From contig NZ_VJZZ01000001.1 of assembly GCF_009659535.1 (NCBI RefSeq), positions 697,424-761,423 of the forward strand: a stretch of DNA of 64,000 nt. The letters run 5' to 3'. Made by a program: the position numbers and the translations under genes. Below the pieces are notes generated by a model, which saw only the letters and a list, made by a program, of their open reading frames with translations, had not been told where the DNA came from and searched no databases. Below are positions 35,455 through 40,643 of the stretch, piece after piece (within the stretch, counting starts at the first letter, position 1; each line of letters opens with the position of its first letter). The DNA comes from Aggregicoccus sp. 17bor-14. Its GTDB lineage: Bacteria > Myxococcota > Myxococcia > Myxococcales > Myxococcaceae.

Positions 35455-36747
35455 ATGAGCGCCCCCTCCTCCCCGTCCGGTCCCCCCACCCCCGAGACTC
35501 CCACCGCGCCGTTGGTCGCCGCCGGGACGCCCCCCGCGGCCCTCGCCCCCGCGGCGGGCCACGGCAGCGCGCACGGCGCGGCGCACGCCGGGACCCACGG
35601 CGACGAGCCCCACCTGCACCCCGAGCACTTCACGCTCTCGCCCGACGTGGCCCGGCTCCCGCTCGCCCGCCGCCGCCAGCGCCTGGGCGCCATCCTGGTG
35701 GACCTCGCGCTGGTGGGCGTGCTCAGCCTGGCCTTCAGCTCGCTCGCGCTGCTCGCCGGGGCCTTCGCAGGCACCCTCCTCTACTGGGCAGCCGGCCGGC
35801 CCTTCGCGCCCACGTGGATGCGCCAGAAGACCACGCGCATCGCGCTCGCCTTCGCCCTCTGCATCGCCTTCATCGGCGTGGGGCGCATGGTCACGCGCGT
35901 GCACGAGAAGCAGGAGGCACAGGAGAAGGCCCGCGAGGACGAGGAGGAGATCGCCTCCGACGCGCGCGAGCGCGCCGAGGGGAGGCACGGCGAGTCCCCC
36001 ATCACCTTCAACACGCTGGGCCTGGGCGCAGGCGAGCTGATGCGCCTGGCCACCACGACGAGCCCGGAGGAGGCGCGCGCGCTCGCCGAGAAGCTGGGCG
36101 CCCGGGTGAAGAAGGAGAAGGACCCTGCGCGCGCGGCCGGGATGCTGCTCGAGATGGTGGACAACGAGGACGTGCCCATCTCGGACGTCTCGCGCGCCGA
36201 GCTCACGCGCGTGCTCTCGCCGCTGGCGGGCGCCCCGGCGCAGCCCGTGGCCGCCCCGGCTGACGCGGCGGCGGCGGGCGCGGCCCCGGATCCGCACCTC
36301 GCGGAGCTCGCGACCCTGCAGCGGCGCAACCTCACGCTCGCGGCGCAGGTGGCGCGCCTGGACAAGACGAAGGACCGGCTGGAGGAGGAGCTCAAGGAGG
36401 CCCAGGAGGAGCACGGCATCCGCCACTTCCTCATGGTCAGCGTGCACGACCTGGGCTTCGGCATCGGCTGGAGCTACGTGTACTTCATCGGCTTCCTCGT
36501 GCTCTGGAAGGGCCACACCCCGGGCAAGCGCCTCTTTGGCATCCGCGTGGTGCGCATCGACGGCCGCCCCATGACGCTGTGGCGCTCCTTCGAGCGCTTC
36601 CACGGCTACGCCGCGTCCATGCTCACCGGCTTCATGGGCTTCATCCAGGTGATGTGGGACCCGAGCCGCCAGTGCCTGCACGACAAGGTGGCCGAGACCG
36701 TGGTGGTGCAGGACCGCCACCACGAGACCGACGCCGTCGTGCGCTGA
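35455..36747 (+). CDS. RDD-family membrane protein with large cytoplasmic insert
   Basis: A 430-residue protein. The N-terminal 60 residues are Pro/Ala/His-rich. Two membrane helices lie at about 74-103 and 125-141. Then comes a soluble insert of about 200 residues with charged helices and a coiled coil (LATLQRRNLTLAAQVARLDKTKDRLEEELKEA). The C-terminal part is a clear RDD-type domain: a helix (GWSYVYFIGFLVLWKG), TPGKRLFGIRVVRIDG, a hydrophobic segment, and QCLHDKVAETVVV. So the family's helix bundle seems split by the insert. Function of RDD proteins is mostly unknown; transport or stress roles are reported for some. It is divergent from accD. Confidence 0.8.
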   Translation: MSAPSSPSGPPTPETPTAPLVAAGTPPAALAPAAGHGSAHGAAHAGTHGDEPHLHPEHFTLSPDVARLPLARRRQRLGAILVDLALVGVLSLAFSSLALLAGAFAGTLLYWAAGRPFAPTWMRQKTTRIALAFALCIAFIGVGRMVTRVHEKQEAQEKAREDEEEIASDARERAEGRHGESPITFNTLGLGAGELMRLATTTSPEEARALAEKLGARVKKEKDPARAAGMLLEMVDNEDVPISDVSRAELTRVLSPLAGAPAQPVAAPADAAAAGAAPDPHLAELATLQRRNLTLAAQVARLDKTKDRLEEELKEAQEEHGIRHFLMVSVHDLGFGIGWSYVYFIGFLVLWKGHTPGKRLFGIRVVRIDGRPMTLWRSFERFHGYAASMLTGFMGFIQVMWDPSRQCLHDKVAETVVVQDRHHETDAVVR

Positions 36748-36759
36748 GCCTCCGACGCC

Positions 36760-37515
36760 CTAGAACTCGAAGGTGTCGCCCAGCTCCAGCACCTCGACCG
36801 GCAGGTGTTTGAGCTCGCGCTTGAGCTCCGCCACGAAGGCCGGCTTGAGGTGGTAGAGCAGCACCTCGGCGCCGTTGCGGCGGAACTTGGCCAGCTCGGT
36901 GCCGAGCGTCTGCGGGGTGAGGTGCCCGGACACGTCCGCGAGCGCCTGCATCCCGTTGGGAAAGCTGGTCTCGAGCAGCAGCGCCTTGAGGTCCGGGGTC
37001 TGGTTGAGCACCTTCCAGAGGCGCTCGGTGGGCCCGGTGTCGCCGCTCATCGCGAGCGTGCTCTGCCCGTCCGAGATGACGAAGCCGCAGGACTCCACCG
37101 GGTGGCTCACCGGAACGCTGCGGACCTTGTAGGGGCCCACCTGGAAGGAGCTCCCGGCGCGGAAGGTCTTGATCTGCAGCACGGGCTTGCGGCGCGAGGG
37201 GATGCGCGTGAAGTCCGGCCACAGCGCGTCGTTGAACATGTTCTCGCGCAGCGCCCGGGCGCACTCGCGCGAGGCCCAGATGGTGACCGGCCGCTCGCGG
37301 CGCCCGATGACCAGGTCCGCGAGCAGCGGCAGGTCCTTCACGTGGTCGAAGTGGCTGTGGCCCACGAGGATGTGGTCCACCTTGCACAGGCGCTCGAGCG
37401 TGAGCGTGCCGGTGAGCGCGCCGGCGTCCAGCGCGAGCACGTCATCGACGAGGAAGCACGTGGTGCGGCACGTGGGCAGCTCCCCTCCATGACAGCCGAG
37501 CACTTGGAGCTTCAC
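36760..37515 (-). CDS. class II-type cyclic-nucleotide phosphodiesterase (MBL fold)
   Basis: A 251-residue metallo-beta-lactamase-fold enzyme predicted to hydrolyse cyclic AMP. GHSHFDHVKDLPLLADL supplies the H-x-H-x-D-H metal site (His53, His55, Asp57, His58), with AMSGDTGPTERLW and LLETSFPN further on, as in class II phosphodiesterases related to yeast PDE1. The GTG start lies one base after the stop of the Crp-type regulator gene. That regulator is itself downstream of an adenylate cyclase gene, so the three genes can make, sense and destroy cAMP. Another MBL substrate cannot be excluded from sequence alone. Confidence 0.85.
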   Translation of the reverse strand: MKLQVLGCHGGELPTCRTTCFLVDDVLALDAGALTGTLTLERLCKVDHILVGHSHFDHVKDLPLLADLVIGRRERPVTIWASRECARALRENMFNDALWPDFTRIPSRRKPVLQIKTFRAGSSFQVGPYKVRSVPVSHPVESCGFVISDGQSTLAMSGDTGPTERLWKVLNQTPDLKALLLETSFPNGMQALADVSGHLTPQTLGTELAKFRRNGAEVLLYHLKPAFVAELKRELKHLPVEVLELGDTFEF

Positions 37516-37516
37516 G

Positions 37517-38167
37517 CTAGAGGTCTCCGAACTTCCACTTCATCTCGAGGTACTGCAGGAAGTCCTGCAGGCGCGCCGTGTCGTAGACCGTGAGCCGGTC
37601 CCCGCTGCGCTCGATGAGGCCGGCGCGGGTGAGCCGGTCCAGCATGCTGCGGATGGCGGGCTCTCCCACGCCGATCTGCCGCGGCAGCTCGCGCACGGGC
37701 AGCTCGATCTCCACGCCCTCCTCGAGCGCCCGGCCGCGCGTCTGCGCCGCCTGGAGGATCTGGTGCACCACGCGGCTGGAGGGGTCGGAGAGCAGCAGGT
37801 TCTCGATCTGCGCGTCCGCCTCGCTCAGGCGCTCGGCGAGCTTCTTGATCATCCGCACCGCGATCTCGCTGTTGCCGCGGATCATCCCCTCGAAGGTCTT
37901 GGGGTCGATGACCAGCAGCTTCGCATCCTCGCTCACCGTGGCCGAGGCGTTGCGCGGCTTGTTGGAGATGATCGCCATCTCGCCGAAGAACTCGCCGGGC
38001 CCGAGCACCGCGAGCACCTTCTGCACGTCGCGCACCTGCTTGGAGATGGTCACGCGCCCCGACTGCAGGACGTACATCTCCTTGCCGGGCTCGCCCTCGC
38101 TGAAGAGGACCGTGCCGCGGGCGAACTCCTTGCCGAATCGCTGGAAGAGGGTTTCCTCGGCGCCCAT
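37517..38167 (-). CDS. Crp/Fnr-family cyclic-nucleotide-responsive regulator
   Basis: A 216-residue DNA-binding regulator. Residues 10-115 form a cyclic-nucleotide-binding beta-roll whose phosphate-binding cassette is FGEMAIISNKPRNASATV, with Glu63 and Arg72 at the positions that contact ribose and phosphate of cAMP. A long dimer helix follows, then a Crp-type helix-turn-helix (LPVRELPRQIGVGEPAIRSMLDRLTRAGLIER, about 157-190). No Fnr cysteines are present. The ATG has TGGAG upstream. Placed between an adenylate cyclase and a phosphodiesterase gene, it very likely responds to cAMP. Its promoter carries two tandem 12-base repeats. Confidence 0.92.
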   Translation of the reverse strand: MGAEETLFQRFGKEFARGTVLFSEGEPGKEMYVLQSGRVTISKQVRDVQKVLAVLGPGEFFGEMAIISNKPRNASATVSEDAKLLVIDPKTFEGMIRGNSEIAVRMIKKLAERLSEADAQIENLLLSDPSSRVVHQILQAAQTRGRALEEGVEIELPVRELPRQIGVGEPAIRSMLDRLTRAGLIERSGDRLTVYDTARLQDFLQYLEMKWKFGDL

Positions 38168-38178
38168 GAAGTCTCCAG

Positions 38179-38222
38179 ACTTAAGCTGCCCTCTTCCCGA
38201 GGGTCAAATAGAGGGTCAAATA
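38179..38222 (-). promoter_or_regulatory. Crp-gene promoter with tandem 12-base direct repeats
   Basis: GAGGGTCAAATA occurs twice head to tail (38199-38210 and 38211-38222). On the minus strand the copy nearer the gene contains a -35 box TTGACC (38207 to 38202), 17 bases from TTAAGT (38184 to 38179), which lies just upstream of the regulator's start. The repeats would be bound by a regulator of this gene. Confidence 0.55.
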
Positions 38223-38236
38223 AGTGATGGTGCGGC

Positions 38237-40597
38237 CTACTTGCGCGTGGCCGTGTACACCCCATCCCACCCGGGCCCCGGAGGCTGGGCCTTGAGCGCC
38301 TCGAGCTCCGCGAGGTAGCGGCGGCTCGGCGCATCCTCGGGCCACAGCTGCAGCACGCGCTCGAAGGCGCCCTGCGCCTCGTCGAACGCTTGCGCCTCGA
38401 AGTGGTCCACGCCGGCCTCGAACGCCCCGAGCGCCTCGGCGTCCGCGCCCTGCGCTTGGCCCAGCGCGCGCAGCTCGTAGATGCGCACCGGGCGGCGCTT
38501 GCCCTTCACGCGCACCGCGCCGAGCCGGCGCGCCACCACCTGCTCGCGCACCCGCTGCCAGGTGGCCTCGGAGATGAGCACGCGTGTCTCGTACTCCTTG
38601 TTCGTGCCCTCCAGGCGGCTCGCCAGGTTCACCGCGTCGCCCATCACGGTGTAGTTGAAGCGCCCGTGGGTGCCCATGTTGCCCACGTTCATGGGGCCGC
38701 TGTTGATGCCCACCCCGATGTCGAACTCGGGCAGCCCCTGCGCGCGCCACTGGGCCTTGAGCTCCTCGAGCTTCTCCAGGAAGCGCAGCGCCGCGCGGCA
38801 GGCGCGCAGCGCGTGGTCCGGCTGGTCCACCGGCGCACCCCAGAAGGCCATGATCGCGTCGCCGATGTACTTGTCGAGCGTGCCGCCCTGCTCGAACACG
38901 ATGTCCGTCATCGGCGTGAGGTAGGCGTTGACGAACTTCACCAGCCCCTCGGGCGTCATCCGCTCGCTCAGCGTGGTGAAGCCTCGGATGTCCGAGAAGA
39001 GGACCGTCAGCTCCTTCTTCTCGCCGCCCAGCTTCAGCTTCTCGGGGTGCGCGAGCATCTGCTCCATCACGCTCGCGTCGAGGTAGTGCTTGAAGGTCTG
39101 GCGCAGCACGCCCTTCTCGCGGTCCACCGAGAGGTAGCCGAGGAAGATGGTGCCGAAGGCCACCGAGAGCAGGTTCACCAGCGGCAGCACCGTGGCCACC
39201 TGCAGCCCGCGCTCGAAGAGCAGCTGGTCCAGCGCGAGCCAGCCCGCGCCCAGCAGCGCCACCGCACCCAGCTTCCAGGCGTAGGAGACGCGCGGCAGCA
39301 GCACCCCGAGCGCGAGCGCGCTCAGGAGCATGAAGAGCAGCTCGAGCCCGCGCAGGGACGCAGGCCGGGTGAGGAAGTCCTGCGAGAGGATGTTGGAGAG
39401 GAAGCTCGCGTGCACGTACACGCCGGCCTCCATCTCCTTGAAGGGGGTGACGCGCTGATCGTAGTCCCCCACCAGCGTCACGCCGAAGAGCACCGCCTTG
39501 CCCGCGAGCTCGCGCTTCCCCACCTTGCCGTCGAGCACGTCCGAGAGGCTGTAGGTGCGAAAGGCGCTGCTGGGCCCCAGGTGGTTGATGAGGGTGTAGG
39601 GCTCGGAGGTCTGCAGCGGGACGAAGTACGGCGCCCCGCTCGCGCGCCGCAGCCGCACGCCGGTGAGCTTGCCCAGTTCCGGGTCGAACACCGGCTCCAC
39701 GCTGGCGTCGAGGTAGGCGGCGGCCGTCTGCACCTCGAGCGCGGCGAGGAAGCCGCCGTGGGCCTCGAGCTTCGCGAGCGTGGGCACGCGCCGCAGGGTG
39801 CCGTCCGGGTCCGGCGCGGTGTTGAAGTAGCCCACGCGCGGGGAGGCTCGCGCGATGACCGGCAGCGCCATCTGGGCGCTGTACATGCGCCAGCCGGGCA
39901 CCTGGCGGAAGTCCACCTCCAGCTGCGAGCCGGGCACGCTGCCCGGGAAGCGGCGCAAGAGGTGCGGCTCGAGCAGGGCGCGCTGCTCGGCGGCGCGCTC
40001 GGTGAAGGCCTCGCGGCCCGCCTCGTCGTAGGCGATGACGCCCTGGACCACGAAGGGGGCGCGCGAGAGCGCCTGGGCGAGCTGCTCGTCCGGGTTCTTC
40101 AGGCTCTGCTCGGCCAGCAGCGCGCGGAAGGCCTCGAGGCTGCTTCCGGGCGGCGGGCGCTGCGGGCTCGCGCGGTCGAAGGCGAGCAGCGCGTCCGCGT
40201 ACGCGTGCATGCGCCCGTCCCCCGCCGCGTCCGTGAAGATCGCGTCCAGACCCACCGCGCGCACGCCCGCCTCGCGCAGCCGGTCCACCGCCTGCGCCAT
40301 GCGCTCGCGCGGCCAGGGCCACAGCCCGTAGGCCTGCGCGCTCTTCTCGTCCACGGCCACCACCACCACGTCGGGGTGCGGCGCGCGGGGCCCGCGCAGG
40401 CGGAACTTCAGGTCCGTCGCGCGCCCCTCGAGGATCTGCGCGCCGCGCACCAGCGTCTCGCCCACGCCGGCGGCCCGCGCGGCGCCCTCCGCCCCGGGGT
40501 TGGTGGGCGTGGTGTCCGCGAGCCAGTGCAGCGTGCAGAGCACCGCGGCGAGCGCGAGGGCGAGGACTTCGAAGCGGCGGCGGGAGAGGAGGCTCAT
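38237..40597 (-). CDS. CHASE2-domain class IIIb adenylate cyclase
   Basis: A 786-residue membrane cyclase, paralogous to the one at 15201-17774. After an N-terminal helix comes a CHASE2 domain (about 45-410; VVVVAVDEKSAQAYGLWPWPRE), three helices (about 415-500), then the cyclase (about 530-710). The active site is complete: FSDIRGFTTL and DKYIGDAIMAFWG (metal Asp, adenine-selecting Lys), NYTVMGDAVNLASRLEG (Thr, Asn, Arg). The C-terminal TPR-like part ends GPGWDGVYTATRK, matching the tail of the first cyclase. The ATG at 40597 is preferred to one 15 codons upstream that would overlap the divergent purM region. It leads a cassette with the Crp-type regulator and phosphodiesterase. Confidence 0.92.
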   Translation of the reverse strand: MSLLSRRRFEVLALALAAVLCTLHWLADTTPTNPGAEGAARAAGVGETLVRGAQILEGRATDLKFRLRGPRAPHPDVVVVAVDEKSAQAYGLWPWPRERMAQAVDRLREAGVRAVGLDAIFTDAAGDGRMHAYADALLAFDRASPQRPPPGSSLEAFRALLAEQSLKNPDEQLAQALSRAPFVVQGVIAYDEAGREAFTERAAEQRALLEPHLLRRFPGSVPGSQLEVDFRQVPGWRMYSAQMALPVIARASPRVGYFNTAPDPDGTLRRVPTLAKLEAHGGFLAALEVQTAAAYLDASVEPVFDPELGKLTGVRLRRASGAPYFVPLQTSEPYTLINHLGPSSAFRTYSLSDVLDGKVGKRELAGKAVLFGVTLVGDYDQRVTPFKEMEAGVYVHASFLSNILSQDFLTRPASLRGLELLFMLLSALALGVLLPRVSYAWKLGAVALLGAGWLALDQLLFERGLQVATVLPLVNLLSVAFGTIFLGYLSVDREKGVLRQTFKHYLDASVMEQMLAHPEKLKLGGEKKELTVLFSDIRGFTTLSERMTPEGLVKFVNAYLTPMTDIVFEQGGTLDKYIGDAIMAFWGAPVDQPDHALRACRAALRFLEKLEELKAQWRAQGLPEFDIGVGINSGPMNVGNMGTHGRFNYTVMGDAVNLASRLEGTNKEYETRVLISEATWQRVREQVVARRLGAVRVKGKRRPVRIYELRALGQAQGADAEALGAFEAGVDHFEAQAFDEAQGAFERVLQLWPEDAPSRRYLAELEALKAQPPGPGWDGVYTATRK

Positions 40598-40643
40598 CGG
40601 GCAGGTGGCATCGTACGTCCAAAGTCGGTAGAAGGCCCGCACC

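Follow-up and report, generated by a model that had tools for sequence, protein, structure and literature searches.

Most work on bacterial cyclic AMP (cAMP) concerns cyclases that are scattered over the genome and Crp proteins that bind DNA. A described locus at which cyclase and phosphodiesterase genes stand together within a cAMP/Crp pathway is cyaD1-spdA of Sinorhizobium meliloti, where SpdA, encoded beside the cyclase, belongs to the class III metallophosphoesterases and acts specifically on 2',3'-cyclic nucleoside monophosphates (cNMPs) and the receptor Clr is a DNA-binding Crp (PMC4222275; structure with DNA, 7pzb). Class II phosphodiesterases, whose motif is HXHLDH (PMC4222275), include yeast PDE1 and, by the title of the paper on it, the 3',5'-cyclic nucleotide phosphodiesterase PdeE of Myxococcus xanthus (Kimura 2011, J Bacteriol 193:2053, cited in PMC13087886). 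Here we describe a three-gene cassette of Aggregicoccus sp. 17bor-14, a member of the Myxococcaceae, which lies in a 64,000-nucleotide stretch of contig NZ_VJZZ01000001.1 (the window). It is like the S. meliloti locus in having the cyclase and phosphodiesterase genes at one place, but differs from it both in the class of the phosphodiesterase and in the nature of the receptor. With a probability of roughly 0.6, we read the cassette as an ancient Myxococcota module of cAMP receptor and phosphodiesterase that is fed by a replaceable membrane cyclase and whose output would pass through a partner protein or an unusual DNA site. A literature search found no open paper on this cassette.

The first-pass annotation of the window had proposed a cyclase, a Crp-type gene and a phosphodiesterase gene in this order on the minus strand, with the last starting one base after the regulator. 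All three genes were found in that arrangement, and the GTG start of pde lies one base past the TAG stop of crp. The features of the locus are as follows:

38237..40597, minus strand: membrane adenylate cyclase of class III with a CHASE2 domain (Pfam CHASE2, 6.9e-51; Guanylate_cyc, 2.5e-25)
37517..38167, minus strand: Crp-derived cyclic-nucleotide receptor, crp (Pfam cNMP_binding, 2.1e-24; HTH_Crp_2 at 25.2 bits, Pfam cut-off 27)
36760..37515, minus strand: class II-like phosphodiesterase of metallo-beta-lactamase fold, pde (Lactamase_B_2, 3.6e-18; PDEase_II, 1.7e-13)
38179..38207, minus strand: predicted crp-pde promoter, TTGACC, 17 nt, TTAAGT (from the comparison of relatives)
40598..40643, no strand: divergent 46-bp spacer between cyclase and purM, presumed site of the cyclase promoter (from the coordinates; purM is divergent in most relatives)

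The 6.9-Mb source genome encodes nine class III cyclase domains and sixteen cNMP-binding domains, and only three of its proteins combine a cNMP-binding domain with a Crp-type helix-turn-helix (HTH): the cassette receptor, an MrpC-like protein and one other.

Conservation of the cassette was surveyed in 146 Myxococcota genomes, with neighbours judged from match coordinates and cyclase matches accepted at E<1e-100. The phosphodiesterase is present in 111 genomes, the receptor in 114 and the cyclase in 63. Receptor and phosphodiesterase occur together in 107, and in 101 of these the two genes are adjacent in the same order and on the same strand (62 pairs in the Myxococcaceae, the window's family, and 39 elsewhere). 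In all 62 family pairs, 3-10 nt separate the match ends, and the distance is exactly 4 nt in 47. In 44 genomes a cyclase lies no more than 400 nt upstream; the complete trio is kept in 41 of the 146, 20 in the family and 21 outside it. Both the crp-pde adjacency and the trio are far beyond chance, and because this synteny spans the phylum, the refuting condition named at first pass, a trio confined to one strain, does not hold. From the domains, the invariant active-site residues and the phylum-wide synteny we infer that, as had been proposed, the three products would make, sense and destroy cAMP.

The cassette commonly sits in a block in which purN-purM run divergently from cyclase-crp-pde-accD-folC, with accD or folC within 3.5 kb downstream in 27 of the 32 assessable family loci and 46 of 63 assessable loci elsewhere. 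The flanking purM, accD and folC are thus likewise conserved neighbours, as they would be if the genes were merely co-inherited in a slowly rearranging block with no functional coupling. We consider this very improbable, as the crp-pde link persists in the 39 genomes outside the family, often between different flanks and still with short gaps and on the same strand. Moreover, all three genes encode cyclic-nucleotide proteins, and the genes inserted among them in some genomes (see below) are again of the cyclic-nucleotide or signalling type.

The cyclase is like other CHASE2 class III adenylate cyclases in its domain order, membrane topology and complete class IIIb catalytic residues. One N-terminal transmembrane (TM) helix is followed by a periplasmic CHASE2 domain, three TM helices, the class III domain and a conserved C-terminal tail, with hydrophobic or TM segments at residues 9-27, 417-435, 443-461 and 467-485. 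Across 49 homologues, the metal ligands Asp536 and Asp580, the adenine-binding residues Lys576 and Thr650 and the transition-state residue Arg661 are invariant, and the second transition-state residue, Asn657, is 98% conserved. The Lys/Thr adenine pair marks class IIIb adenylate, not guanylate, cyclases. What sets this enzyme apart from its class is its fixed place before the receptor and phosphodiesterase genes and its repeated loss in the Myxococcaceae. On a tree of receptor and phosphodiesterase, cyclase presence switches at least five times within the family, a number forced by the starred branches. A crp-pde pair with no matched cyclase within 3.5 kb was counted in 56 genomes, of which a few may hold diverged cyclases that were missed, as only the best candidates per genome were scored and the cut-off was strict. 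Where family loci lack the cyclase, crp and purM are nearly always immediate neighbours. A hunt for cyclase remnants in 17 cyclase-less loci found a coding remnant in only one, 23 residues just before crp; in this genome (G121, L040:1751-5892), about 4 kb, including a 466-aa open reading frame without a Pfam family, replaces the cyclase and leaves only this tail of it. Because purM abuts crp and the 23-residue remnant was kept, at least some of the absences are losses.

The pair that stays behind probably has a promoter of its own, since a TTGAC box and, at about 17 nt, a -10-like hexamer precede crp with or without the cyclase. In 31 of 33 loci the 90 nt ahead of crp contain TTGAC, where shuffled sequences give 3.3 such loci on average; the count is inflated by the relatedness of the loci even though their spread over genera is wide. 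A strict consensus promoter scan did not call the promoter of the window's crp. Because the cyclase changes at least five times while the pair stays, and because crp is preceded by this conserved promoter, the core of the cassette is the receptor and phosphodiesterase, and the cyclase is its loosest part. The closed three-gene circuit envisaged at first pass is weakened by the same facts. We note that in the window the TATTTGACCCTC block, which contains the -35 box upstream of crp, is tandemly duplicated (38199-38222, with the second copy at 38211-38222, just upstream), and that this duplication is absent from the relatives compared.

The receptor is like the Crp/Fnr cAMP receptors, such as Escherichia coli CRP, Mycobacterium tuberculosis CRP (MtbCRP) and GlxR, in its ligand domain, its C-helix and its equivalents of Glu72, Arg82 and Arg123 of E. 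coli CRP. The cAMP-binding Arg/Glu pair, earlier described as intact, is indeed present as Glu63 and Arg72 in the cyclic-nucleotide-binding domain, and together with Arg113 these residues occur in 73 of 73 family members, including those in which the cyclase or the phosphodiesterase has been lost. Some Anaeromyxobacter-like genomes keep the receptor at this place with neither enzyme. The positions of Thr127 and Ser128 are mostly Ala/Asp, as in other Crp proteins of the phylum. Were the local cyclase the sole source of cAMP, decay of the ligand residues would be expected in cyclase-less lineages, and none was seen among the 73 receptors. The conserved pocket residues support cAMP as the ligand of the receptor, although they do not prove it.

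The HTH, by contrast, departs from the Crp/Fnr pattern. We compared it with 31 controls, consisting of other Crp-type proteins of the same phylum and of E. coli and M. tuberculosis CRP. The equivalent of Arg180 is found in none of the 73 cassette receptors as opposed to 29 of the controls, that of Glu181 in 15 as opposed to 27, and the equivalent of Arg185, which is Arg in 25 of the controls, is mostly Glu, Ser or Asp, such that a recognition helix of the Arg180-Glu181-Arg185 type is missing. The mean charge of the recognition helix is -0.1 in the cassette receptors and +1.3 in the controls (Mann-Whitney 1e-9, a p-value that is indicative because the rows are related). In 16 matched genomes, the pairwise identity of the cassette receptors is 64% in the ligand domain, 34% in the HTH and 72% in the added C-terminal helix, whereas the canonical Crps of the same genomes show 58% in the ligand domain and 60% in the HTH. 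Conservation per domain shows a variable HTH flanked by a well-kept ligand domain and a C-terminal tail that is likewise conserved, and outside the ligand domain the added helix is the part kept best. Because the Crp DNA-reading signature is lost and the HTH is far less conserved than the ligand domain, the output of the receptor is probably not ordinary Crp transcription. The earlier description of this protein as a Crp-type regulator thus stands for its fold and ligand pocket, but not for its DNA contacts, whose residues are missing across the 73 members in what is their least conserved domain.

Several observations weigh against this reading of the receptor. HTH_Crp_2 is matched at E<0.01 by 56 of 62 receptor homologues, and the AlphaFold2 (AF2) model (predicted local distance difference test score, pLDDT, 87) draws a complete winged helix after the C-helix (helices 158-165 and 169-181, wing strands 185-188 and 191-194, followed by the extra helix 197-213), by which DNA binding is possible. 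Within the window's family, furthermore, a GntR-like recognition helix, VGEPA[IV]R, is conserved, so that altered DNA binding is possible. These points, along with MtbCRP and GlxR being the best fold matches, are what one would expect of a classical transcription circuit in which a DNA-binding Crp with a changed site preference controls the cassette and other genes while the phosphodiesterase supplies negative feedback. Such a circuit seems to us unlikely, though it deserves to be taken seriously: the Arg180 and Arg185 equivalents are gone in all or nearly all of the 73 receptors, with acidic replacements, the recognition helix has lost the positive charge of the controls, and conservation is lowest in the HTH, while in control Crps the HTH equals the ligand domain in this respect. 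Upstream of crp, no palindromic autoregulatory site common to genera was seen by eye, the promoter alone being shared, and a CTGTCCCAC...CGCACAG dyad in this region is confined to one genus group.

In the receptor-phosphodiesterase module that we favour, a membrane class III cyclase with a CHASE2 sensor would make cAMP, the Crp-derived dimeric receptor would bind it, and the class II-like metallo-phosphodiesterase, which would share a short operon with the receptor, would remove it. Receptor and phosphodiesterase would form a stable unit, transcribed together from a sigma-70-like promoter of their own; the cyclase next to them would be an input that can be replaced, and the pair could also be fed by other cyclases of the genome. 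Most likely, the contacts that cAMP would change are those between the receptor and a partner protein, or an unusual DNA site, rather than contacts with ordinary Crp boxes, because the recognition helix is without the Crp contacts while the ligand pocket, the C-helix and the extra C-terminal helix are kept. A bolder version, which we advance tentatively and with the odds somewhat against it, is that the receptor has given up sequence-specific control of transcription and acts through its C-terminal helix on a protein partner (the phosphodiesterase, the cyclase or AccD/FolC). If true, the receptor would be a bacterial equivalent of cAMP receptors that work outside transcription, such as the regulatory subunits of PKA.

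The phosphodiesterase resembles yeast PDE1 and M. xanthus PdeE in scoring above the PDEase_II cut-off (50.8 bits, cut-off 23.7; the family is found in all 61 homologues) and in its full set of dimetal ligands (H53, H55, D57, H58, H138, D159, H198 and H222, 97-100% conserved). It is shorter, at about 250 residues as compared with 369 in yeast PDE1, and both the window protein and the family consensus read HSHFDH at the position of HXHLDH. The class II label of the first pass is thus borne out by Pfam membership but not by the motif. Yeast PDE1 is the best PDB sequence match (3e-15 with a profile), the motif FNxxWPDF is common to both proteins, and a structure search with the AF2 model (pLDDT 97) puts PDE1 first, with Z 28.0 and a root-mean-square deviation of 2.1 over 246 residues, level with YhfI and RNase Z. 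An RNase Z identity was rejected, as the NCBIfam equivalog scores 42.7 bits against a cut-off of 293. Five complete Myxococcaceae genomes and the window have one PDEase_II gene each, and two Anaeromyxobacter-like genomes have none; because each Myxococcaceae genome tested has only one such gene, PdeE is probably the orthologue of the cassette enzyme, by elimination only. In three related genomes (L109, L110 and L111), the phosphodiesterase match is split in two by an insertion, some 15-50 residues long, around positions 125-134.

Other findings count against cAMP as the substrate. The metallo-beta-lactamase fold also occurs, with similar Z, in RNase Z, YhfI, Apyc1 and PhnP, and for this reason the fold does not fix the substrate. 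Relatives of the phosphodiesterase lie next to folC or accD with neither receptor nor cyclase in Deltaproteobacteria-type metagenome-assembled genomes, in records named Syntrophaceae, Smithella and Deltaproteobacteria (L160, L162, L169, L178, L179, L187, L189, L197 and L198); relatives in Acidobacteria records lack folC and accD as neighbours. Among 27 assessable crp-less loci, many of them titled outside Myxococcota, 13 have accD or folC after pde. Combined with the HSHFDH motif and with the precedent of SpdA, a phosphodiesterase encoded beside a cyclase that proved to be 2',3'-specific, this could mean that the enzyme acts mainly on something else (another cyclic nucleotide, 2',3'-cNMPs or a metabolite linked to folC/accD), in which event the cassette would not be a set that makes and destroys cAMP. 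That appears improbable to us in view of the sequence and structural ranking of PDE1, the shared FNxxWPDF motif, the place of its gene beside that of a cyclic-nucleotide receptor in 101 of 107 genomes, and the probable orthology with PdeE, published as a 3',5'-cyclic nucleotide phosphodiesterase.

The component families are already known; new here are the conserved cAMP receptor-phosphodiesterase module, its exchangeable cyclase and its unusual receptor. In contrast to scattered cyclases and a DNA-binding Crp, receptor and phosphodiesterase have kept together as a very small predicted operon across a phylum of bacteria with social and predatory habits, with a cyclase that comes and goes. Should the receptor have given up the Crp way of reading DNA, it would represent a large class of cAMP effectors with a Crp fold. 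A natural experiment is already at hand in the genomes that have or lack the cyclase and in those that have or lack the phosphodiesterase.

In some Myxococcota, the genes inserted between cyclase and crp encode a TPR protein that carries two cNMP-binding domains, a GAF-GAF-HD (HD-GYP-like) protein, or both (loci with such signalling-type insertions: L097:2613-5733; L106:2873-5823, in reverse orientation; L091; L096; L115:4068-5696). These insertions hint at cross-talk between cAMP and cyclic di-GMP, and the TPR protein has a relative in kind in M. xanthus CbpB, which, as cited, has two cAMP-binding domains (Kimura 2005, cited in PMC10313047). In the window, a gene at 35455-36747 on the plus strand, convergent to pde, stands between pde and accD, unlike most other Myxococcaceae loci, where accD follows pde after about 20-110 nt. 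A further record, BNCN01000003.1 (L119), is titled Comamonas sp. KCTC 72670 and carries a typical Myxococcaceae crp-pde-accD-folC locus with 82% identity, and is thus mislabelled or contaminated.

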